Origin: an uncultured Bacteroidales bacterium
GTDB lineage: Bacteria > Bacteroidota > Bacteroidia > Bacteroidales > Muribaculaceae
Direction of reading: 5' to 3'
Assembly: GCA_946412245.1 (NCBI GenBank)
Contig: CAMKGM010000009.1
Location: 1 to 64,000, forward strand
DNA: 64,000 bases
Under the pieces are notes generated by a model that did not search any database, had not been told where the DNA came from, and saw only the letters and a list, made by a program, of their open reading frames with translations. The position numbers were made by a program, and so were the translations under genes. This document shows, in pieces, positions 10,638 to 26,219 of the stretch. The stretch's first letter is position 1, and the number at the start of each line of letters is the position of its first letter.

Positions 10638-12758
10638 ATGAAAATCAATAAACATATCATTATAAACCTTATTGCAATCGCCAGTGTGTTACCGGCTTTT
10701 GCGCAAGAAAAACAAGCAGAAATAGACACAACCGATGTGTTTTATCGCCACTTGAATCTGAAAGAAGTGGTGGTGACGGGTGCCACGGGCGAAACCCGCC
10801 TCAAGAACTCGTCGGCCCCTGTCAAGATGCTCACTGGCCGCGAGATGCAGGCCCTGTCGGCTTCGAATGTGATCGATGTAATAGCCACTCAACCAGGTGT
10901 ATCACAGATTACCACTGGCAGCGGTATTTCGAAACCTGTAATTCGTGGTCTGGGCTACAACCGCATTGTGGTGGTGAACGACGGCATCAGGCAAGAAGGG
11001 CAGCAGTGGGGCGATGAGCATGGCATTGAGGTCGATGGCCAGAGTGTGGGCTCGGTCGAGATACTCAAGGGCCCGGCCAGCCTCGTGTATGGCTCCGATG
11101 CCATGGCGGGTGTCATCAAGTTCAACCCCTATCCGGTGGTTCCGTTGGGCAAGATCAAGTTGAACCTGTCGACCGAGTATCAGACCAATAACGGTCTGTT
11201 CGACTACTCGCTCAACTTTGCCGGTAACAAGCAGGGCATATTGTGGGACTTGCGCTACAGCGAGAAAATGGCGCATGAATACAAGAACAAGTGCGATGGC
11301 TATGTGCCTAATTCGCAGTTCCACGAGCGTGCCTTGCGCGGCATGCTGGGCCTGAACCGCAACTGGGGCAAGTCGCAACTCATCGTGTCGCATTACCACA
11401 TCACCCCCAGCATCATTGAGGGCGAGCGTGACAGCGAAACTGGCGAACTCGAGATCCCCTACGATAAACTCAAGACCTATCATCACGGCATGCCTTACCA
11501 GCAGGTCTATCACACCAAGGCAGTGCTGAACAACACCTTTTATGTGGGCGATGACCGTCTGAATGTGCTGCTGGGCTATCAGCAGAACCGCCGTCAGGAG
11601 TTTGAAGAGGCCGAGCACCCAAACGACTATGCGCTCTACTTCAAGTTGCACACGGTGAATTACAATGTGAACTACATCACGCGCGACTTCGGTGGCTGGA
11701 AGTTCACCGGCGGCGTGAACGGCATGTGGCAGCGTTCGCTGAATCTGGGCGAGGAGTATCTGATACCCGAATACCGGCTCACCGATGTGGGCGTGTTTGC
11801 CACAGCCACCCGCGAGTGGAGCAAGTGGGTGCTGAACGGCGGTGTGCGCTACGATTATCGTCACTTGAATAGCGCCGAACTCATTGAAGACGATGTGGTT
11901 AGGTTTGCACCCTTCAAGAAGAATTTCAATGGCGTTACTGGTAGCCTTGGAGCCGTATTTCATGCTACCGATGCACTCAACCTGAAACTGAATGTGTCGC
12001 GCGGTTTCCGTGCGCCCAATGTGAGCGAACTTGCGTCGAACGGTGTGCACGAGGGGTCGGTGCGTTATGAACTTGGCAATGTGAATTTGAAACCCGAGTA
12101 CAGTTGGCAGTTCGACTTCTCGATGGATTATACGAGCCGCTACTTCAGCGCCGAACTGGCCCTGTTCTGTAACCGCATCGACAACTACATTTATCTGCAC
12201 CGCGTGAACGAGGTAATGGAAGAGGGCTACATGACCTATCGCTTCGACAGTGGCGATGCGCGGCTGCTGGGCTGCGAGGTGAGCCTTGATGTGCACCCCA
12301 TCCACTCGCTGCACTTGGGCACGTCGTTCAGCATGGTCGATGCCGTGCAGTTGCATCAGCCCGAGGAGAGCAAGTACTTGCCGTTCACACCGGCACCACG
12401 CTGGCAAGTGGATGCCAAGTATGAGTTGAACCATCACGGTAAAGTGTTCTGCAACAGTTTTGTGTCGGTGGGCCTTGACTACAATTTCAAGCAAAACCAC
12501 TACTATAAGGCCGACAATACCGAGACGGCCACACCCGCCTATGCGCTGCTCAATGCCACCGTGGGCACTGACCTGAATGTGAGGGGCAAACATGTGGCAT
12601 CGGTCTATGTGATAGGCAGCAACTTGACCGACAAGGTGTATCAGAATCATCTGAGCCGACTGAAATATGCTCCTGTGAATCTGTTGACGGGTCGGCAGGG
12701 CGTGAGCAACATGGGCCGCAATATCACCTTCAAGGTGGTGGTGCCACTGGAGTTCTGA
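10638..12758 (+). CDS. TonB-dependent outer-membrane receptor, possibly for a metal
   Basis: The frame is open from 10548, but the ATG at 10638 starts a signal peptide (MKINKHIIINLIAIASVLPA), giving 706 residues. A plug domain follows directly (LKEVVVTGA, KPVIRGLGYNRIVVVNDGI, VEILKGPASLVYGSDAMAGV). A 22-strand-type barrel ends in an aromatic-terminated strand (VPLEF). There is no N-terminal carboxypeptidase-like extension and no SusD partner, so it is not a SusCD glycan pair. The plug motif RQEGQQWGDEHGIEVD and the upstream Cys/His-rich protein suggest metal or metallophore uptake, as in ZnuD-like receptors (inference). Confidence 0.8.
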   Translation: MKINKHIIINLIAIASVLPAFAQEKQAEIDTTDVFYRHLNLKEVVVTGATGETRLKNSSAPVKMLTGREMQALSASNVIDVIATQPGVSQITTGSGISKPVIRGLGYNRIVVVNDGIRQEGQQWGDEHGIEVDGQSVGSVEILKGPASLVYGSDAMAGVIKFNPYPVVPLGKIKLNLSTEYQTNNGLFDYSLNFAGNKQGILWDLRYSEKMAHEYKNKCDGYVPNSQFHERALRGMLGLNRNWGKSQLIVSHYHITPSIIEGERDSETGELEIPYDKLKTYHHGMPYQQVYHTKAVLNNTFYVGDDRLNVLLGYQQNRRQEFEEAEHPNDYALYFKLHTVNYNVNYITRDFGGWKFTGGVNGMWQRSLNLGEEYLIPEYRLTDVGVFATATREWSKWVLNGGVRYDYRHLNSAELIEDDVVRFAPFKKNFNGVTGSLGAVFHATDALNLKLNVSRGFRAPNVSELASNGVHEGSVRYELGNVNLKPEYSWQFDFSMDYTSRYFSAELALFCNRIDNYIYLHRVNEVMEEGYMTYRFDSGDARLLGCEVSLDVHPIHSLHLGTSFSMVDAVQLHQPEESKYLPFTPAPRWQVDAKYELNHHGKVFCNSFVSVGLDYNFKQNHYYKADNTETATPAYALLNATVGTDLNVRGKHVASVYVIGSNLTDKVYQNHLSRLKYAPVNLLTGRQGVSNMGRNITFKVVVPLEF

Positions 12759-17542: not shown

Positions 17543-17568
17543 TTATGATTTATTTTAAAAACATACCT

Positions 17569-19590
17569 ATGAAAAAAGTTTTCTTTGCTGCATTGACAGC
17601 TCTCATTTCAACAACAGGTGCTATGGCACAAAACAAGACATTCAACTACAATGTGGACCGCTTTGCCGACATCGAGGTGCTCCGTTACCAGGTGCCCGGC
17701 TTCGACGAACTCTCGTTGAACCAAAAGAAGATGGTCTATTACCTCACCGAGGCCGCTTTGCAAGGTCGTGACATCCTCACCGACCAGAACGGCAAGTATA
17801 ACCTGCAAATTCGCCAACTCGTGGAGGCTGTTTACACCAACTTCAAAGGCGACCGCTCAAGTGCCGATTTCCAGGGACTTGAACTCTATCTGAAGCAAAT
17901 TTGGTTCGGCAATGGTATTCATCATCACTATTCACAGGACAAGTTCGTGCCTCAGTTCACTCAGGCTTTCTTTGATGCGCAAGTGAAGGCTTTGCCCAAG
18001 GACAAACTGCCGCTGTGCAAGGGCCAAACGCTCGACCAAATGCTCTCTGTGCTCGACCGCGTGATTTTCGACCCCACCTACATGGCCAAGCGCGTGAACC
18101 AGGCCGATGGCGAAGACCTCATCGTAACCAGCGCCAACAACCTCTATGAAGGTGTGACACAGGCCGAGGTGGAAGCCTATTTCAATGCCCTGAAAGATCC
18201 TAACGATGCCACTCCCATCTCCTATGGCTTGAACACCAAGGTGGTGAAGGAAAACGGCAAGGTGGTGGAGAAACCCTACAAAGTGGGTGGACTCTACTCG
18301 CGCGCTATCGTCAACATCGTCTATTGGCTGCAAAAAGCTGCCGAGGTGGCCGAGCGTCCCGCGCAAAAAGCCTACATCGAGAAACTCATTGAGTTCTATG
18401 AGACGGGCGACCTCAAGACCTTTGATGACTACTCTATTCTTTGGGCCGAAGAGACCGCAAGCGACATCGACTTCATCAACGGCTTCATTGAGAGCTATGG
18501 CGACCCTCTGGGTATGACAGCCAACTGGGAGAGCGTCGTGAACTTCCGCAACAACGAGGCTTCGCGCCGCACCTCTATCATCAGCGGCAACGCACAGTGG
18601 TTCGAGGATAACTCACCCGTTGACCCCCGTTTCAAGAAGAAAAATGTGAAGGGTGTGAGCGCCAAGGTTATCACCGCCGCTATCCTGGCCGGTGACAGCT
18701 ACCCATCAACTCCCATCGGCATCAATCTGCCTAACAGCAACTGGATTCGCGCCGCTCACGGCTCTAAGAGTGTCACCCTCGAGAACATTACCGATGCCTA
18801 CGATGAGGCTTCGGCCGGCTCCGGCATGAACGAGGAATTTGCCTACAGCAATGTGGAGGTGGAGATGATGAAGAAACACCTCACTCTGGCCGACAAGCTC
18901 CACACCGACCTGCACGAGTGCTTGGGCCATGCTTCCGGCCAACTGCTCCCCGGTGTTGACCCCGATGCCCTCAAGGCCTATGGTGCTACCCTCGAGGAAG
19001 GCCGTGCCGACCTCTTCGCTCTCTACTACCTGGGTGACCCCAAACTGGTAGAATTGGGCATCTTCGACGATCCTAACGCCTATCAGGCTGAGTATTACAA
19101 GTACATCATGAACGGTTTGCTCACCCAGCTCACCCGCATCGAGCCGGGCAAGAACATCGAGGAGAGCCACATGCGCAACCGCAAGTTCATCAGCGAGTGG
19201 TGCTTGGAGAAGGGCAAAAAGGACAAGGTAATCCAACTCGTTAAGCGTGGTGGCAAGACCTATGTCAAGATTAACGACTACAAGAAGCTTCGCAACCTCT
19301 TTGGCCAACTGCTCAAGGAAGTGCAGCGCATCAAGAGCGAAGGCGACTTCGAGGCCGGACGCAAACTCGTCGAGAACTACGGCGTGAAGGTAGATCCCAA
19401 GATTCACAAGGAAATCCTCAAGCGCTACGAGGCGCTCAACATCGCTCCCTACAAGGGCTTTGTCAACCCCACCTATCGCCCCGTCTATGACAACAACGGC
19501 AACATTACCGACGTGAAGGTGGTTTACGGCGAGAACTACATCGACCAGATGCTCCGTTACTCGCGCGACTACAGCCCCCTCACCAAGTAA
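17569..19590 (+). CDS. dipeptidyl peptidase III (M49), exported
   Basis: Zinc exopeptidase of family M49, which removes dipeptides from peptide N-termini. The family motif HEXXGH appears as HECLGH (His449), followed by the metal/catalytic EEGRAD (about 476-481). The 673-residue length matches Bacteroides DPP III. A signal peptide (MKKVFFAALTALISTTGAMA) indicates export. The ATG at 17569 is preferred over 17545, which would add eight residues before the Lys-Lys n-region. A palindromic hairpin follows at 19643. Confidence 0.92.
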   Translation: MKKVFFAALTALISTTGAMAQNKTFNYNVDRFADIEVLRYQVPGFDELSLNQKKMVYYLTEAALQGRDILTDQNGKYNLQIRQLVEAVYTNFKGDRSSADFQGLELYLKQIWFGNGIHHHYSQDKFVPQFTQAFFDAQVKALPKDKLPLCKGQTLDQMLSVLDRVIFDPTYMAKRVNQADGEDLIVTSANNLYEGVTQAEVEAYFNALKDPNDATPISYGLNTKVVKENGKVVEKPYKVGGLYSRAIVNIVYWLQKAAEVAERPAQKAYIEKLIEFYETGDLKTFDDYSILWAEETASDIDFINGFIESYGDPLGMTANWESVVNFRNNEASRRTSIISGNAQWFEDNSPVDPRFKKKNVKGVSAKVITAAILAGDSYPSTPIGINLPNSNWIRAAHGSKSVTLENITDAYDEASAGSGMNEEFAYSNVEVEMMKKHLTLADKLHTDLHECLGHASGQLLPGVDPDALKAYGATLEEGRADLFALYYLGDPKLVELGIFDDPNAYQAEYYKYIMNGLLTQLTRIEPGKNIEESHMRNRKFISEWCLEKGKKDKVIQLVKRGGKTYVKINDYKKLRNLFGQLLKEVQRIKSEGDFEAGRKLVENYGVKVDPKIHKEILKRYEALNIAPYKGFVNPTYRPVYDNNGNITDVKVVYGENYIDQMLRYSRDYSPLTK

Positions 19591-19642
19591 GTTGTCAGTC
19601 ATCAGTCATTAGCTATCAGCAATCAGTTGACATCAACCCTGT

Positions 19643-19666
19643 GCGGTCGCCACTTGTGGCGACCGC
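19643..19666. terminator. perfect 11-bp palindromic hairpin after DPP III
   Basis: GCGGTCGCCAC (19643-19653), a TT loop, then GTGGCGACCGC (19656-19666). There is no T-run, so it may act as a barrier or dispersed repeat rather than a classic terminator. A shorter 9-bp version is at 24494-24513 in the second repeat copy. Confidence 0.5.
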
Positions 19667-19710
19667 AACCGTATGTGCTATCATCAAACCTATTGCAACC
19701 GGTGATTTCA

Positions 19711-19742
19711 TTTGGTGATGTTGAAGATAATTTCTATCTTTG
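19711..19742 (+). promoter_or_regulatory. promoter of SOD copy 1
   Basis: TTTG at 19711-19714 and TATCTTTG at 19735-19742 with a 20-base spacer, a full consensus match. The same arrangement is kept at 24555-24586. Confidence 0.65.
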
Positions 19743-19770
19743 TGTGCAACCTCTCTAAAATGTAATAATT

Positions 19771-20376
19771 ATGAAAACGGAACCCATAAACGGAAAATTT
19801 GAACTCATGGCGCTCCCCTTTACTCCCAATGCCTTGGAACCCGCCATCAGTGCCGAGACGCTGTCGTTTCATCACGGCAAGCACTTGCAAACCTATGTGA
19901 ACAACCTCAACGCCGCCATGTCCGGTAGCAAATTCGAAGGATTGACCCTCGAAGAAATTGTGATGAAGTCCGACGGCGGCATCCTCAACAACGCCGGCCA
20001 AATACTGAACCACAACCTCTATTTCTCGCAGTTTAAACCATATTGTGAGCAAAACGAGCCCGTGGGTGAGTTGGCTGCCGCCATCGAACGCGACTTTGGC
20101 ACATTCCAGGAATTCCAGCAGCAGTTCCAGGTGGGTGGCGCTACGCTCTTCGGCTCAGGTTGGGTGTGGCTGGCTGCCGATGCCCAGGGCAAACTCCACA
20201 TCGTTCAGGAACCCAATGCCGGCAACCCCATCAGGCGAGGCTTGAAACCCATTCTCACCTTCGATGTGTGGGAGCATGCCTATTACCTCGATTATCAGAA
20301 TCGCCGTGTTGACCACTTGGTCCAACTATGGCACATTCTCGACTGGCAAGAACTCAACCACCGTTACACCGAGTAA
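19771..20376 (+). CDS. sodB: Fe/Mn superoxide dismutase, copy 1
   Basis: Converts superoxide to hydrogen peroxide and oxygen. Metal ligands are His34 (SFHHGKH), His81 (ILNHNLYF), Asp165 and His169 (FDVWEHAYYLDY). The 201-residue length is normal for single-domain Fe/Mn SODs, and no signal peptide is seen (cytoplasmic). It differs from the second copy at 24615 at only four residues by my comparison (Met50/Leu, Ser51/Pro, Ser67/Ala, Asp108/Glu). Both copies keep their promoters and ligands, so both may be active. Two nearly identical SOD genes about 4.8 kb apart are unusual. Confidence 0.95.
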   Translation: MKTEPINGKFELMALPFTPNALEPAISAETLSFHHGKHLQTYVNNLNAAMSGSKFEGLTLEEIVMKSDGGILNNAGQILNHNLYFSQFKPYCEQNEPVGELAAAIERDFGTFQEFQQQFQVGGATLFGSGWVWLAADAQGKLHIVQEPNAGNPIRRGLKPILTFDVWEHAYYLDYQNRRVDHLVQLWHILDWQELNHRYTE

Positions 20377-20530
20377 CACCACCCTCATTCAGCATCATGT
20401 CATTGTAATGCGAGACGCAGTCTCGTACAAATAACATTTGCTCGATCTGCTCCCGTACATTCGCGATCCCTTTATGGTTTTCGGGTCGCCCAGTTCACTA
20501 CAACTTATGGTAAATATTTTTTCTGTTTAA

Positions 20531-20562
20531 TTTGCTTTTCTAACTTTTATTTGTTATTTTTG
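20531..20562 (+). promoter_or_regulatory. promoter of the structured RNA candidate
   Basis: TTTG at 20531-20534 and TATTTTTG at 20555-20562, 20-base spacer. Start expected near 20569. Confidence 0.6.
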
Positions 20563-20567
20563 CGGTG

Positions 20568-20797
20568 ATTCAATTGCTTTTTACCTTTGAATCACGACAT
20601 ATTGCATTTTAGAAGCGTTATGCTCATTCTTGTGGTCTGAAAACCTAGGAAATTTTCAAACTAAACGCAAGGGATTGGCAGAGCGGCTTCCTCGCTATAG
20701 CGTGGGCTGCATTTATATTCCCCTTTTGCGTTTAAGGTTTTCCTAGGACCGTCAGACTACAAAGCGTGGCATAATCAGTCCACGCTTCTTTTATTTT
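20568..20797 (+). ncRNA. structured non-coding RNA candidate, 6S-like
   Basis: A gene-free unit of about 225 bases with its own promoter and terminator. A 5' hairpin pairs GTGATTCAA (20565-20573) with TTGAATCAC (20587-20595). A long rod follows: TTGTGGTCTGA pairs with TCAGACTACAA, CCTAGGAAA with TTTTCCTAGG, and TAAACGCAA with TTGCGTTTA, interrupted by internal loops and capped by a loop around 20672-20718. A long imperfect duplex with bulges is the hallmark of 6S RNA (and of the Bacteroidales-1 motif, thought to be its counterpart), but I could not run a covariance search. A long cis-acting leader of the SPFH gene is less likely because a strong terminator precedes that gene. Confidence 0.55.
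20762..20797 (+). terminator. rho-independent terminator of the structured RNA
   Basis: AAGCGTGG (20762-20769), a 10-base loop, CCACGCTT (20780-20787), then CTTTTATTTT. Confidence 0.75.
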
Positions 20798-20822
20798 GTA
20801 TAATAATTATTTAATTTAAATA

Positions 20823-22184
20823 ATGGCAATTATAGATGTAGTTAAATGTGAAGCGAATTCTCAAGTGCTTGTTGAGAAGTTTCCTTCAAACGATTTGAGA
20901 TTAGGAACCCAATTGGTGGTTCATACAGGTCAAGTCGCGTTTTTCGTGAAAGGTGGCAAGGTGATGGATATGTTTGAAAGTGGCACTTATACCATCAAGA
21001 CTTCAAACATTCCCATTTTGGGCAAACTGTTAAATCTGCCTTTTGGCGGCGACTCACCATTCCAGGCCGAAGTGTGGTTTGTGAACAAACTTGCAGTTCT
21101 CGACACCAAGTGGGGTACTCCCACGCCTATTCAGCTCGAAGATCCGAAGTATGACATTATTGTACCCGTGCGTTCATTTGGTCAGTATGGCTTGAGAGTG
21201 CATGACCCTCGTGTGTTTCTTGAGCAGCTGGTAGGAAATATGTCAAGATTCACAGTCAACAAGGTTGACTCCTATTTCAAGGGCATCATGATGTCGCTGT
21301 TTGCCAATCTCATCTCTGACAAGATGACAAAGGCAAGCATATCGGTGCTCAATATTAATTCCCACTTGCTGGAGATGTCAGAATATGTTTGTGAAAAACT
21401 GAAACCTGAATTTGAGAAATACGGCCTTACTCTCGAGAATTTTGCCATCATGTCAGTCAATGTGCCCGAAGATGATCCGAGTTATATTAAACTGAAAGAG
21501 GCAAAAGATCTTGCTGCAAAGGTGAAAATTGCAGGCCGAGACCTTTATCAAATGGATCGTACCTTCGATGTAATGGATAAGGCTGCCGGTAATGAAGGCA
21601 TTGGAGGCCAAATGCTGGGACTTGGTGTGGGACTTGGAGCAGGAACAGGAGTGGGGATGCAGATGGGCAATGCCGTTGCTCAAACGCTCAACACAAACCC
21701 ACCTCAATCATCAACTTCTCCTGCTGCACCGCCAGCCCCTGCTGCTCCTGCACCTCCACCCATACAGGTGGAAACCTATTTTCTTTCGGTAAATGGACAG
21801 CAATATGGCCCGTATGATGAAAATACCATGATTTCGATGATTAATAAGTCGCAGGTTAACGGTGGAACAATGGCTTGGAAACAAGGCATGAGCGATTGGG
21901 CAAAACTTGCTACTTTACCAGAGTTCGCACAGTTGTTTCCTGCCCCTGCAGCTGCCCCTCCGGCTCCCCCAGCGCCCACTCAGGTGTCATATCTTGTTAT
22001 AATTAACGGTCAGCAATATGGCCCGTACGACGAGAATGCCATCAAGGATATGTTGGGCAGGAATCAGATTTATGGAGATAATCTGACGTGGCGACCAGGC
22101 ATGCCTAATTGGGAGAAACTGTCCTCTTTGCCCGAATTTGCAAGCTTGTTCAATCTCCCAGAACCACCTTCTAATCCAACTTAA
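20823..22184 (+). CDS. SPFH-domain protein with two C-terminal GYF_2 domains
   Basis: Residues about 15-245 form an SPFH/band-7 domain of the 'virion core protein'/YdjI type (RLGTQLVVHTGQVAFFVKGG, FVNKLAVLDTKWGTPTPI, VRSFGQYGLRVHDPRVF). A Gly-rich then Pro/Ala-rich linker follows (about 255-315). Two GYF_2 modules come last: NGQQYGPYDENTMISMI...MAWKQGMSDWAKL and NGQQYGPYDENAIKDML...LTWRPGMPNWEKL. Most relatives I know end in a zinc ribbon instead; here a zinc ribbon is on the protein two genes downstream. SPFH proteins build oligomeric membrane platforms, and GYF domains bind proline-rich peptides. First gene of the small island cluster; function inferred as membrane scaffold or stress. Confidence 0.8.
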   Translation: MAIIDVVKCEANSQVLVEKFPSNDLRLGTQLVVHTGQVAFFVKGGKVMDMFESGTYTIKTSNIPILGKLLNLPFGGDSPFQAEVWFVNKLAVLDTKWGTPTPIQLEDPKYDIIVPVRSFGQYGLRVHDPRVFLEQLVGNMSRFTVNKVDSYFKGIMMSLFANLISDKMTKASISVLNINSHLLEMSEYVCEKLKPEFEKYGLTLENFAIMSVNVPEDDPSYIKLKEAKDLAAKVKIAGRDLYQMDRTFDVMDKAAGNEGIGGQMLGLGVGLGAGTGVGMQMGNAVAQTLNTNPPQSSTSPAAPPAPAAPAPPPIQVETYFLSVNGQQYGPYDENTMISMINKSQVNGGTMAWKQGMSDWAKLATLPEFAQLFPAPAAAPPAPPAPTQVSYLVIINGQQYGPYDENAIKDMLGRNQIYGDNLTWRPGMPNWEKLSSLPEFASLFNLPEPPSNPT

Positions 22185-22198
22185 AAACCTTTATACAA

Positions 22199-22543
22199 AT
22201 GAAACAGTCGATTATAATCGTAGCCTTAGTGCTGCTAGTTGTGAATGCACTGTTAGGAGTGGCAATCACATCTTATAATACAACAGCCATGATTTTGAAT
22301 TCTATTGTGATAGTGGCAAATGCGTTGTTGATGTTGGGGGTATCATCCCTTCATCTGCATGACGGCTTCCGTTATTCGCTCTATTGCCTGTTTTCGATTG
22401 CAACTGTAGTGGAATTCATCATAGGCATGTTCTCGCCCGACCATTTCAACGACAATGGGGCTCTTATTATAAATGTCGTGTTGCTGGCAATTGAAATCAT
22501 TCTGTTGCTGGCAGCCAATGTGACCTCTAAAAATGTATCATAA
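22199..22543 (+). CDS. small four-helix membrane protein
   Basis: 114 residues, almost wholly hydrophobic, with four predicted membrane segments (about 3-23, 29-49, 57-78 and 87-107) joined by short polar loops such as LHLHDGFRY and FSPDHFNDNG. No family recognised. It lies 14 bases after the SPFH gene and 20 bases before the zinc-ribbon gene, so the three form one transcription unit and the products may form one membrane complex (inference). Confidence 0.65.
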   Translation: MKQSIIIVALVLLVVNALLGVAITSYNTTAMILNSIVIVANALLMLGVSSLHLHDGFRYSLYCLFSIATVVEFIIGMFSPDHFNDNGALIINVVLLAIEIILLLAANVTSKNVS

Positions 22544-22563
22544 ACCGTTTAATAATAAATCAT

Positions 22564-23550
22564 ATGGCTGAATTAACTCATTACAGATGCCCCAACTGCG
22601 GTGCATCAATTACTAACACCGAGAACTGCGAATATTGTGGCAGTCTGCTTGTACGCTTCGTGAAACGTGGCATCGACTTGTCAAAAACAAGTTATTTGTC
22701 GAACGACAGGGTGTATCCTGGACTAATAGAGAACCTGAAGCGTAACCTGCAACTCCAGGACACATATTTAGGTCAAGAATTTGTGGCAACCGATATTTTT
22801 AGGTCGAAAGAGTGGTCGATAAACGATAATTCGAATGGTTTTTGCACTTCTGTAATCAAATTGTCAGGGGCCATATTCAGTGATGGTCAACTCATATTTC
22901 CGAATATGATAGGCGTTAAAGGGCTCTGCGTGGTTTGGTATTTTGGGACCTATGTGCAGCAAGAAGGATTAGAAGAATACAATCAAAAGCAAATGGATCT
23001 GTTAGAACGATTTAAACAATTGGACAGTTTTTCTTTGTTTACACCTCATCAGTGTTATCATACAGACCAATGGGGCGCCCAGCGAAAAGCACAAGAATAT
23101 GCCATCAACTTTGGGTGCGATGCAGTGGGTGCTGCCCGTTTGGTTTCAGAGATTATGGAAAAGGTTTACCAGGTTCCACTTGATGAAAACATTGACATCT
23201 TCACTAATCATGGGTGGGCAATAGATGAGGCAAGAATTAAAGCAAACAAGGAAAGGGGTATTGAAAAAAGGCGAAACGCCAATGATGGATGTTATGTTGC
23301 AACAGCAATATATGGATCATACGATTGTCCTTCGGTATGGACTTTGCGTCGGTATAGAGATTACACGCTAGATAAAACCTTTGCAGGCCGAGCATTCATC
23401 AAAACCTACTATGCAATAAGTCCCACACTTGTGAGGTGGTTTGGCAAAACAAAATGGTTTAAGGCCATTTGGAAGCCCGTCCTCGACAAGATGGTTTCAA
23501 GATTGCAACAAAAAGGCGTGCAATCAACACCCTATAAAGACAAGTATTGA
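22564..23550 (+). CDS. zinc-ribbon protein with CFI-box C-terminal domain
   Basis: The N-terminus has a CxxC...CxxC zinc ribbon (YRCPNCGASITNTENCEYCG). The middle, about residues 45-235, is unrecognised. The last 85 residues match the CFI-box-CTERM pattern: GCYVATAIYGSYDCPSVWTL, RRYRDYTLDKTFAGRAFIKT and YYAISPTLVRWFGKT. That domain is found at the end of diverse proteins and its function is unknown. Third gene of the SPFH cluster. Base composition is AT-rich relative to the flanking chromosome, consistent with an accessory origin. Confidence 0.7.
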   Translation: MAELTHYRCPNCGASITNTENCEYCGSLLVRFVKRGIDLSKTSYLSNDRVYPGLIENLKRNLQLQDTYLGQEFVATDIFRSKEWSINDNSNGFCTSVIKLSGAIFSDGQLIFPNMIGVKGLCVVWYFGTYVQQEGLEEYNQKQMDLLERFKQLDSFSLFTPHQCYHTDQWGAQRKAQEYAINFGCDAVGAARLVSEIMEKVYQVPLDENIDIFTNHGWAIDEARIKANKERGIEKRRNANDGCYVATAIYGSYDCPSVWTLRRYRDYTLDKTFAGRAFIKTYYAISPTLVRWFGKTKWFKAIWKPVLDKMVSRLQQKGVQSTPYKDKY

Positions 23551-23671
23551 GCGAATTAGATGCAATGGTGCAAAATAACCTTATAGCCTAATTCATTATT
23601 ATACATTTGATATTGTTAGATAGTTTTACTGACATAAAAACAATAAGTAATAATTTATATATTTACAAAAA

Positions 23672-23899
23672 ATGAAAGTGAAAATTTTTGAACAAGACCT
23701 GACTGGTGGCGGAAAGCTTGCCATTCTGATTGGTGGCATGGATTCAGAAAATCCTAAAGAGTTAATGAACCAAGTTGTTCATGAGTATGTGAATAATCGA
23801 CAATTCAATGACTTTGTGGATATCCATAGTGATGATGCATATGTCAGAGTGATCATCATGGGTATAAATGAATTGGATTATAGAGAAATGGAACTTTAG
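23672..23899 (+). CDS. small protein of unknown function
   Basis: 75 residues, acidic, no signal peptide or membrane segment. It opens MKVKIFEQDLTGGGKLAILI, then QVVHEYVNNRQFNDFVDIHS. It reads as a small soluble alpha/beta protein; no family recognised. AT-rich, 121 bases after the zinc-ribbon gene, within the segment enclosed by the SOD repeats. Coding is supported by ATG start, length and amphipathic composition only. Confidence 0.5.
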   Translation: MKVKIFEQDLTGGGKLAILIGGMDSENPKELMNQVVHEYVNNRQFNDFVDIHSDDAYVRVIIMGINELDYREMEL

Positions 23900-23951
23900 A
23901 GATAACAAATTTTAACTAATAAGGAGATATGTTCTATTCAATTTTATAATT

Positions 23952-24152
23952 ATGAATTATATTGATTTTTATGTAACTTGCTTAAAAGAAAGTATTGAGA
24001 GTGGCATCGTTGACAAAAATGATGTAAATGTTGATGATTACAAAGAAAGAATCATTGAAAATGTTATTTCATTATTAGGACCCAAAGTTAATACAACTCA
24101 AGTGGCACAGGAAATAGAAAAACATTTTGCTGACATTTTGGGGTTTGAATAA
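23952..24152 (+). CDS. small protein of unknown function
   Basis: 66 residues: MNYIDFYVTCLKESIESGIV, then a mostly helical acidic remainder ending ADILGFE. No recognised domain. 52 bases after the 75-residue gene and likely cotranscribed with it. Two small acidic proteins beside the SPFH cluster could be partners of each other, but this is a guess. Confidence 0.45.
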   Translation: MNYIDFYVTCLKESIESGIVDKNDVNVDDYKERIIENVISLLGPKVNTTQVAQEIEKHFADILGFE

Positions 24153-24283
24153 AAGTTCAGGCTCTAAATTCTTCAACATTGCGTAGTATGATAATTTATG
24201 ATCTGCTACGCAATGATTGTTTTATCTCTTTTAAGATGCTATTTATTTGTTTTTGCGCTTGCATTATTTGTGTGTGGGAGTGA

Positions 24284-24454
24284 CTAGTTGCCAATGTCAG
24301 CTTTCGAGTTGCCGTAGGTGGGAGCATCTTCGGCCACCGATGGCACAACTTGGGCCTGGACCACTGAGGGGGCATGGGCGGCTTGCTTGATTTTCCACAG
24401 GATCCTTTTCTTTTCTTCTTCTTCAAGGGGAGCCAGTTCCACACACTTGCGCAT
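24284..24454 (-). pseudogene. 3' remnant of a minus-strand gene cut at the SOD repeat
   Basis: On the minus strand an ATG at 24454 gives 56 residues with natural-looking composition (MRKCVELAPLEEEEKKRILW...YGNSKADIGN). The frame stays open upstream to a TAG at 24476-24478 (LIQDAKI before the Met). That stop lies at the edge of the second SOD repeat (about 24473). The simplest reading is the C-terminal end of a gene whose 5' part was lost when the repeat was placed there. Product unknown. A short intact gene is the alternative. Confidence 0.4.
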
Positions 24455-24554
24455 GATTTTAGCATCTTGAATGAGCTATCGTCAACCCTGTAGGGTCGCC
24501 ACCTGTGGCGACCGCAACCGTATGTGCTATCATCAAACCTATTGCAACCGATGA

Positions 24555-24586
24555 TTTGGTGATGTTGAAGATAATTCCTATCTTTG
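24555..24586 (+). promoter_or_regulatory. promoter of SOD copy 2
   Basis: TTTG at 24555-24558 and TATCTTTG at 24579-24586, 20-base spacer, as in copy 1. Confidence 0.65.
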
Positions 24587-24614
24587 TGTGCAACCTCTCT
24601 AAAATGTAATAATT

Positions 24615-25220
24615 ATGAAAACGGAACCCATAAACGGAAAATTTGAACTCATGGCGCTCCCCTTTACTCCCAATGCCTTGGAACCCGCCATCAGTGCCGA
24701 GACGCTGTCGTTTCATCACGGCAAGCACTTGCAAACCTATGTGAACAACCTCAACGCCGCCTTGCCCGGTAGCAAATTCGAAGGATTAACCCTCGAAGAA
24801 ATTGTGATGAAGGCCGACGGCGGAATCCTCAACAACGCCGGCCAAATACTGAATCACAACCTCTATTTCTCGCAGTTTAAACCATATTGCGAGCAAAACG
24901 AGCCCGTGGGTGAGTTGGCTGCCGCCATCGAACGCGAGTTTGGCACATTCCAGGAATTCCAGCAGCAGTTCCAGGTGGGTGGCGCCACGCTCTTCGGCTC
25001 AGGTTGGGTGTGGCTGGCTGCCGATGCCCAGGGCAAACTCCACATCGTTCAGGAACCCAATGCCGGCAACCCCATCAGGCGAGGCTTGAAACCCATTCTC
25101 ACCTTCGATGTGTGGGAGCATGCCTATTACCTCGATTATCAGAATCGCCGTGTTGACCACTTGGTCCAACTATGGCACATTCTCGACTGGCAAGAACTCA
25201 ACCACCGTTACACCGAGTAA
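24615..25220 (+). CDS. sodB: Fe/Mn superoxide dismutase, copy 2
   Basis: Same 201-residue enzyme as 19771-20376 with all four metal ligands (His34, His81, Asp165, His169). The four differing residues lie outside the ligand positions: Leu50-Pro51 in the loop LPGSKFEG, Ala67 and Glu108. The nearly identical promoter and gene argue for a recent duplication, or for ongoing gene conversion, and against decay of either copy. Downstream, the next gene has its own promoter at 25407. Confidence 0.95.
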   Translation: MKTEPINGKFELMALPFTPNALEPAISAETLSFHHGKHLQTYVNNLNAALPGSKFEGLTLEEIVMKADGGILNNAGQILNHNLYFSQFKPYCEQNEPVGELAAAIEREFGTFQEFQQQFQVGGATLFGSGWVWLAADAQGKLHIVQEPNAGNPIRRGLKPILTFDVWEHAYYLDYQNRRVDHLVQLWHILDWQELNHRYTE

Positions 25221-25406
25221 CACCACCCTCATTCAGAATCATGTCATTGTAATGCGAGACGCAGTCTCGTACAAATACCATTTGCTCGATCTGCTCTCGC
25301 TCGTTTGCGACCCCTTCGTAGTTCCCGGGCGCAGCCAGGCTCCAATACTCCTCTCACCTCTCGCTGTGTGCTTTTGCGATTGCCGCAAGCCTCTTTTGTG
25401 CTTATC

Positions 25407-25481: not shown

Positions 25482-26219
25482 ATGAGCGAAACAATGATTG
25501 TTGATAACAATAGCCCGGTGACCGGCGATCTGCAGGCCATGAAGCAGGCATTCTTTGCCTGTCGCAATGGGGTGGTGGCCGATGCCTTGCGTGCCGCCGG
25601 CGACCCGCATCGCTATATCATGGGTTGCCAGCTCACCGATGTGGCTTCCATCGTTTCCCAATTTTCCCATTTTTCCCAATTTTCCCATTTTTCCCATTTT
25701 TCCCAACATTCCCAAGATTCCCGGATTTCCCAAGATTCCCAGGATTCCCAACTTTCCCAGGATTCCCAACTTTCCCGGGATTCCCAACAATCCCAACCTT
25801 CCCAAGATTCCTTCTTTGCCCGTTTGGCCCGGGCGTTGTGGACCGACCGTGATCACCGTGAGTGTCGCATGGCAGCCACGATGCTCTATCCGCCCAATGA
25901 ATTCTCACAGGAGACGGCGCTGGAGTGGGCGAGGGGTGTGGAGACCTCCGAGATAGCCGATGTACTCTGTCACCGCCTGCTGCGCAAACTGCCTTTTGCC
26001 CTCGAACTCGCAGATCAACTGCTGGCCGACGAAACACCGCTGGTGCGCTACACGGCCTTCAGACTGTTGCTTAACCTCCTGCTCATGGGAAAAGCAACTC
26101 CCACCGTCGCCCTGCGTCAACGGGTCGAAAAAGAGCTGGCGAGGGGAGAGGCGCTGCTTCGCCCTTTGCTGGCAAGTCTGCAGGAAGAATTGGCCGATGC
26201 TGCTCGGGAAATGGCATAA
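25482..26219 (+). CDS. HEAT-like (DNA alkylation repair-type) protein with in-frame SQx repeat insert
   Basis: 245 residues. Residues 1-57 (MKQAFFACRNGVVADALRAA, DPHRYIMGCQLTDVASI) and 110-245 (RALWTDRDHRECRMAATMLY, DVLCHRLLRKLPFALELADQ) resemble the AlkD/DNA-alkylation-repair HEAT family; no catalytic residue is assigned with confidence. Between them lie about 51 residues of the pattern S-Q/H-F, then S-Q-D/L, encoded by seventeen 9-bp units. Because 9 is a multiple of 3, unit gain or loss would keep the frame. Start: the ATG at 25482 follows the promoter; an upstream ATG at 25437 overlaps the -7 box and is unlikely. Confidence 0.65.
   Translation: MSETMIVDNNSPVTGDLQAMKQAFFACRNGVVADALRAAGDPHRYIMGCQLTDVASIVSQFSHFSQFSHFSHFSQHSQDSRISQDSQDSQLSQDSQLSRDSQQSQPSQDSFFARLARALWTDRDHRECRMAATMLYPPNEFSQETALEWARGVETSEIADVLCHRLLRKLPFALELADQLLADETPLVRYTAFRLLLNLLLMGKATPTVALRQRVEKELARGEALLRPLLASLQEELADAAREMA
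25655..25807 (+). repeat. seventeen 9-bp tandem repeats inside a coding region
   Basis: Units begin TTCCCAATT, TTCCCATTT, TTCCCAATT and continue as variants of TTCCCNNNN (one begins ATCCC). The first six end in T- or A-rich triplets; the later ones are more varied (AAGA, GGAT, AACT). All forward frames stay open across the array. Confidence 0.9.

Follow-up and report, generated by a model that had tools for sequence, protein, structure and literature searches.

Twin superoxide dismutase genes frame an AT-rich island with a structured leader RNA in an uncultured Muribaculaceae genome

The DNA analysed here, referred to below as the window, comprises 64,000 nucleotides of contig CAMKGM010000009.1 (positions 1 to 64,000) from an uncultured Bacteroidales bacterium of the Muribaculaceae (assembly GCA_946412245.1; this genome is called G000). 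It contains two Fe/Mn superoxide dismutase (SOD) genes, A and B, placed in direct repeats on both sides of an AT-rich island that includes a structured leader RNA and an SPFH gene cluster (Table 1); the history of this arrangement and the nature of the RNA are the subject of this work. The repeat units are of approx. 0.85 kb (A, 19633-20472; B, 24482-25316) and are identical in 813 of 840 aligned columns (97%, flanks included), with a longest identical run of 250 bp and a weaker similarity that extends to about 20485/25329. The 27 mismatched columns (22 substitutions and 5 in one gap) are scattered along the unit. An initial annotation of this DNA described twin repeats, each with a full promoter, an intact SOD gene and the same downstream hairpin; the motif TTTG-N20-TATCTTTG is indeed present in A and B, the two 201-residue frames are unbroken and differ in the four amino acids that it reported, and the alignment confirms the common hairpin and the spacing of 4844 bp between the genes. 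SOD A matches Sod_Fe_N (PF00081) with 91.1 bits (cut-off 27) and Sod_Fe_C (PF02777, a scan that covered copy A) with 124.5 bits (cut-off 20.9), and the N domain of Fe/Mn SOD is found with 93 bits in copies A and B alike. Judging from their sequences, the products are ordinary Fe/Mn superoxide dismutases, full length and unbroken as expected for this family, and only their genomic setting is unusual. The genome has these two SOD copies only.

The region enclosed by the repeats (20491-24460) has a G+C content of 40.7%, versus 52.4% on the left and 49.6% on the right, in agreement with the AT-richer island that had been annotated. The SPFH/GYF cluster proposed for it is supported by the Pfam domains of its first protein, for which a role in membrane stress may be guessed from the domain. 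Longer relatives of this protein (covering approx. 320-400 of its 453 residues) were found in five genomes from other families of the order, with 33-52% identity, and within the genus one genome has a relative that is 34% identical. No donor was found for the SPFH gene, since its plasmid homologues (23 records) are all less than 60% identical. Spread by phage was considered and rejected, as viral contigs gave no confirmed relative of the SOD or the SPFH protein. The small hydrophobic protein encoded downstream has no Pfam match; a weak PHROGs holin match (E 0.0039) and a weak methyltransferase match among the small island proteins (E 0.0075) were not used as evidence. Adjoining the SPFH genes there is a protein with a CFI-box C-terminal domain (NF041770); the reading of its N-terminal region as a zinc ribbon has against it that the Zn_ribbon_3 match lies under the Pfam cut-off.

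Table 1. Features of the SOD locus (window coordinates; G015 is the sister genome RUG11362; REP-a and REP-b are names coined in this analysis)
Feature	Position	Strand	Basis or remark
M49 peptidase gene, left anchor	17545..19590	+	Pfam PF03571, E 1.5e-42
Recently exchanged tract (M49 3' end and SOD A), near-identical to G015	18985..20431	.	difference counts, dS
Repeat unit A	19633..20485	+	A/B alignment
REP-a before SOD A	19645..19664	.	three differences from 25-bp genome consensus
Promoter of SOD A, TTTG-N20-TATCTTTG	19711..19742	+	sequence
SOD A, Fe/Mn superoxide dismutase, 201 aa	19771..20376	+	open reading frame (ORF) list, Pfam
REP-b after SOD A	20404..20428	.	dispersed palindrome
Promoter-like TTTG-N20-TATTTTTG of leader RNA	20531..20562	+	sequence; putative role
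Structured leader RNA	20611..20791	+	model R1, 143.9 bits; fold; family covariation
SPFH/Band_7_1 protein with two GYF_2 domains	20823..22184	+	Pfam
Small hydrophobic protein, probably membrane	22199..22543	+	translation
Protein with N-terminal zinc-ribbon-like region and C-terminal CFI-box	22564..23550	+	NCBIfam NF041770, E 1.5e-21
75-aa ORF	23672..23899	+	no convincing family match
66-aa ORF	23952..24152	+	weak PADLOC and PHROGs matches only
mqsA remnant, C-terminal part, cut at copy B junction	24300..24476	-	95% over 177 bp to G015 mqsA
Repeat unit B	24482..25329	+	A/B alignment
REP-a before SOD B	24494..24513	.	within exact match to 25-bp genome consensus
Promoter of SOD B, TTTG-N20-TATCTTTG	24555..24586	+	sequence
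SOD B, 201 aa, intact, four residue differences from SOD A	24615..25220	+	ORF list, Pfam N domain
REP-b after SOD B	25248..25272	.	dispersed palindrome
Gene Y, right anchor	25482..26219	+	G015 homologue matches DNA_alkylation (HEAT-like) repeats

Comparison with a sister genome, the uncultured Bacteroidales metagenome-assembled genome RUG11362 (G015), revealed the same frame around a different content. There, the gene order is M49, SOD, an mqsA/mqsR-like pair, a C10 peptidase with dockerin, a second SOD (SOD2) and gene Y. The SOD on the M49 side is 98% identical in DNA to the SOD described here, and SOD2, on the Y side, is 82-83% identical to the other three focal genes. A tree of 50 rows, with a bootstrap not fully settled, unites the four focal genes in a single clade (100/99) and places SOD2 as the outermost of them. 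In the sister, the M49-Y interval has other genes instead of the SPFH cluster, and in that genome only the GYF part is matched, weakly, three times on contig C7.

The island of G000 ends in a trace of the cargo found in the sister. The truncated reading frame noted initially is most likely, as far as its sequence tells, the end of an MqsA-type antitoxin gene, although it is uncertain which frame was intended: the listed ORF at 24196-24465, which is another frame of the same stretch and distinct from the remnant, or the remnant itself. About 63 C-terminal codons remain in frame and the 5' part is gone; 24300-24476 thus lacks the combination of N-terminal part and helix-turn-helix that a full-length MqsA would have. 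At the joint, identity to mqsA of G015 stops after GAGC and the A-type sequence restarts with the shared AGC. In the sister, the MqsA-family gene is just above the cut-off of TIGR03830 and under that of Pfam, and the MqsR-like gene is just above its Pfam cut-off. Where the sister carries an MqsRA toxin-antitoxin pair, this genome keeps only the C-terminal end of mqsA, from which it follows that other cargo once occupied the site.

The hairpins that flank both SOD genes are dispersed repeats, a point absent from the initial annotation. REP-type dispersed palindromes are a known class of repeats, and REP-a and REP-b resemble them in being short, palindromic and repeated along the genome, the properties that were compared. 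Allowing up to 2 mismatches, REP-a occurs at 24 places in G000, at 7 in G015 and at none in eight other relatives, and REP-b at 11 and 5 places, respectively, with 4, 1, 1, 1 and four times 0 in the other eight; reversed-pattern controls gave 0 places in G000 for both. The three consensus differences of the REP-a before SOD A are also present before the M49-side SOD of G015 (G015 A), which carries a fourth.

A sharp change in the similarity between the two genomes was detected next to the cargo. The region 18500-18984 shows 50 differences and the following positions up to 19287 none, and the whole of 18985-20431 differs by 17 substitutions and one 5-bp gap. The synonymous divergence (dS) of the M49 gene is 0.611 in codons 1-480 and 0.033 in codons 482-681. 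This likeness is not conservation, since in four other relatives third-position differences stay at 0.30-0.57 all along the gene, without such a drop. The tract ends at 20431, where G000 and G015 diverge. Over 247 aligned intervals of 300 bp the median identity between these genomes is 0.83, and 28 intervals reach 0.96; the latter map to the SOD locus with its copies A and B, to approx. 11001-12200 and to position 201. The 11001-12200 region, with 96-98% identity against a background of approx. 83%, could reflect a further recent exchange or the strong conservation of a gene. For the SOD genes, dS is 0.040 between A and B, 0.040 between A and G015 A, 0.065 between B and G015 A, and 0.83 between A and SOD2; it follows from these values that the likeness of A and B is young and the two-SOD frame old.

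In six of the eight relatives for which the M49 region was fetched, M49 is followed directly by Y, without a SOD, and in the remaining two neither Y nor SOD was found in the fetched flank. Conversely, the SOD loci fetched from other members of the genus (mostly of 3.6 kb) include neither M49 nor Y. A protein search for SOD gave a match in 47 of 61 genomes, and a DNA search (E 1e-20) in 69 of the 101 genomes of the genus, with two matches in G000 and G015 only; another genome, G027, has two SOD fragments, both at contig ends. Because the fetched M49 loci of the relatives are devoid of SOD and the fetched SOD loci of M49 and Y, the SOD pair at M49-Y looks, on these sequences, specific to the lineage of G000 and G015. 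The neighbours of SOD vary across the genus, e.g., a HAD-like hydrolase (named by reading its sequence) or an HD-domain gene, and therefore SOD seems to have been moved repeatedly. The ancestral SOD site was not found; the HD-domain gene that trails SOD in some relatives is on other contigs in G000 and G015.

From these results, we propose that the M49-Y interval is probably a gene-turnover site, framed by two SOD genes that act as homology arms beside a changing cargo. The sister has two SODs of older divergence around different cargo; hence, the frame predates the island, and A and B became nearly identical only secondarily. As the relatives suggest, M49 and Y would originally have been neighbours, and in the common ancestor of G000 and G015 a SOD would have ended up between them and been duplicated. 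The DNA between the SODs would then have been exchanged: the two contents differ, mqsRA and the C10 peptidase in G015 and, in G000, the AT-rich cluster of SPFH/GYF, small hydrophobic and zinc-ribbon/CFI-box genes with its own promoter-like sequence and leader RNA, the order of these events being the part that we infer. Subsequently, the old paralogue on the Y side of G000 would have been lost and the M49-side SOD copied anew in its place, which left the joint inside mqsA beside a palindrome. A tandem duplication of SOD with part of mqsA, followed by a deletion towards Y, would fit this joint best; the palindromes possibly helped, and conversion of the old SOD2 from A may also account for it. 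Finally, homologous recombination would recently have passed the M49 3' end with SOD A between the lineages, in either direction, leaving the tract described above.

Gene turnover by recombination between conserved flanking genes is a known concept, and the conserved anchors, the differing cargo in the sister and the sharp tract beside the cargo are shared with it; the locus differs in that two paralogous SOD genes make up its frame. The SOD part is an instructive yet ordinary example of the renewal of a paralogue and the turnover of cargo. Its lesson is that near-identical twin genes need not be a young duplication, given that the members of an old pair can be re-homogenised as the intervening DNA is swapped, and here a sister genome shows the steps. 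Several points weigh against this proposal. The two-SOD frame is known from one sister genome only, and the sequence of events is therefore reconstructed from two genomes, both of them draft assemblies (138 contigs in G000). The distances among A, B and G015 A are nearly equal, which leaves the derivation of B from A unproved, and the joint towards Y at about 25330 has no counterpart in G015. In addition, the high identity of 11001-12200 to G015 indicates that tracts of this kind are not unique to the SOD locus.

The initial annotation took the arrangement as a duplication in which a segment was enclosed or captured. A duplication and foreign-looking DNA are both present, but this account is too simple considering the older two-SOD frame of G015. 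A single recent duplication of SOD around the SPFH island, without an earlier two-SOD stage, would explain the 97% identity of A and B, flanks included, and the AT-rich island; nevertheless, it is unlikely, since the SOD pair of G015 (dS about 0.8) is more diverged than the unexchanged part of M49 is between the two genomes (0.61), and the mqsA remnant represents an earlier, different cargo. It had also been suggested that relatives should be compared for one SOD without the island, a layout that was not seen: among the 101 genomes of the genus, two SODs occur only in G000 and G015. Recombination between A and B could, given their identity, delete the island, but an actual loss that left one SOD was rejected, as this layout was not seen among the genus genomes searched or the loci fetched. 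Somewhat less probable still is that copy B is a misjoin of the draft genome, i.e., an assembly or strain chimera; the 250-bp run common to both copies, the position of the left joint beside a dispersed repeat and the 138 contigs would favour such an error, but the A/B differences (27 of 840) are spread over the unit, two separate misjoins would be required, and an independent assembly also has the two-SOD frame. That the SOD repeats are insertion-sequence-like arms of a composite mobile unit, as direct repeats around foreign-looking DNA and dispersed palindromes at each SOD might suggest, is highly improbable, given that no transposase, integrase or relaxase family was matched among the five island proteins scanned, that there are just two SOD copies in the genome, and that viral contigs gave no confirmed SOD or SPFH relatives.

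The most novel part of the locus, and the one that a specialist would find surprising, is the leader RNA. A structured RNA had been annotated in the island, and this is substantiated by the predicted fold of 20636-20800 (z -5.7 versus shuffles) and by the existence of homologues. By DNA similarity, 34 of the 393 genomes compared within the order have it, G000 counted, and model R1 detects it in 67 of 199 Bacteroidales genomes (E 1e-5 or better). Copies range from 1 to at least 14 per genome, with at least 9 in G000, these counts being lower bounds as at most 14 candidates were scored. R1 has a single hit within the window and no hit on the G015 contig. The list for G000 has six more copies, on contigs C72, C60, C56, C47, C40 and C34 (loci L212-L216 and L164), and contig C47 ends soon after its copy. 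Among 35 aligned homologues, 22 of the 45 predicted pairs show changes on both sides, as expected for a conserved structured RNA; 97.2% of the cells pair, and none of 500 shuffles was as high on any of five measures. In a larger alignment of 75 sense sequences (of 88 rows, the final 13 were removed as antisense matches that coincide in place with sense ones), 96% of the cells pair, versus 36-46% after the partners were shifted by one to three columns, and for 29 pairs at least 2 Watson-Crick types were each seen at least twice.

The position of the RNA is that of a cis-acting leader, i.e., a fixed place before a gene of the same orientation. In 68 of 74 loci the next downstream ORF of at least 100 aa shares the strand of the RNA, at a median distance of 54 nt, and in 57 of these 68 it lies at 20-110 nt; two of the 76 loci were set aside, one without downstream sequence and one without such an ORF. 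The upstream ORF is on the same strand in 35 of 67 loci (median 277 nt). The genes that follow are varied: secreted and lipoprotein-like proteins, leucine-rich repeats, a small membrane protein before a J-domain protein, zinc ribbons and SPFH, where only the SPFH name stems from a family search and the others from reading the sequences. In 9 of 36 loci the leader is followed by a member of one recurrent family of similar secreted proteins.

In many homologues a hairpin loop located before the start codon contains GGAACUG, to which a CAGUUCC near the 3' end is complementary; their pairing would form a pseudoknot. In a second test, with 75 of 76 loci (L243 has no anchor) and a scoring scheme changed after the first result, the loops covary: 13.71 against a permuted mean of 11.38 (sd 0.25, largest of 500 12.09).

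The leader was compared with known RNAs. At the gathering thresholds of Rfam 15 there was no match to it in the window, and an E-value scan gave only chance-level matches at this stretch. In the loci of 20 and 19 homologues only tRNAs and one adjacent DUF805b exceeded the threshold, and in E-value scans of two homologues the leader gave weak matches or none. A 2017 study reportedly described 224 RNA motifs. The leader may be among the thousands of candidate RNAs announced in the title of PMC8040213. The FopS small RNA (RF04319) is, like the leader, a multi-copy RNA of Bacteroidetes; nevertheless, according to PMC11697453, it consists of a single-stranded 5' stretch and a terminator hairpin, whereas the leader is a multi-helix RNA of approx. 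170 nt, and homologue L151 scores only 16.5 bits (E 3.8) with the FopS model, against a gathering score of 56. DUF805b (RF02914) is a cis-regulatory element, as the leader may be, but has 35 positions and another structure, and is adjacent to it without overlap. At locus L244 (1539-1574) DUF805b lies approx. 30 nt after a leader copy and before the next gene, and the two elements may work together.

The leader is called unnamed in the sense that no name was found in the Rfam scans or in the open-licence literature searched. On the basis of its sequences, we lean towards the view that it represents an unnamed Bacteroidales class of approx. 170 nt, built from a closing helix and a long covarying stem, often with a pseudoknot, which may act on horizontally acquired genes as a general switch or insulator and move together with them. 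If this is true, a multi-copy covarying leader before unrelated genes across the order would represent a sizeable gap in the RNA catalogues. Some observations speak against this view. The 35 sequences from which R1 was built match it by construction, the loci include near copies of each other (L159, L167), and in 6 of the 74 loci the next ORF is on the opposite strand. Regarding the pseudoknot, a first and cruder test with 35 of 36 loci (L164 has no anchor) gave no separation, with 26 loci having at least 6 pairs against a permuted mean of 25.8, and a mean of 19.8 (largest 26) for mononucleotide shuffles; in the second test at least 5 of the rows kept (L150, L156, L173, L180, L182) have an anchor that is clearly out of place, and the copy in the window has no partner loop.

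Two further features were observed to the right of the island. The gene Y protein of the window has no Pfam match, and at 25653-25815 the gene has in-frame degenerate 9-bp units (nnnTTCCCA) that encode an insert rich in Ser, Phe, Gln and Asp, missing in the G015 homologue. Beyond Y, collinearity with the G015 contig stops at 30117, and that contig continues for approx. 40 kb.

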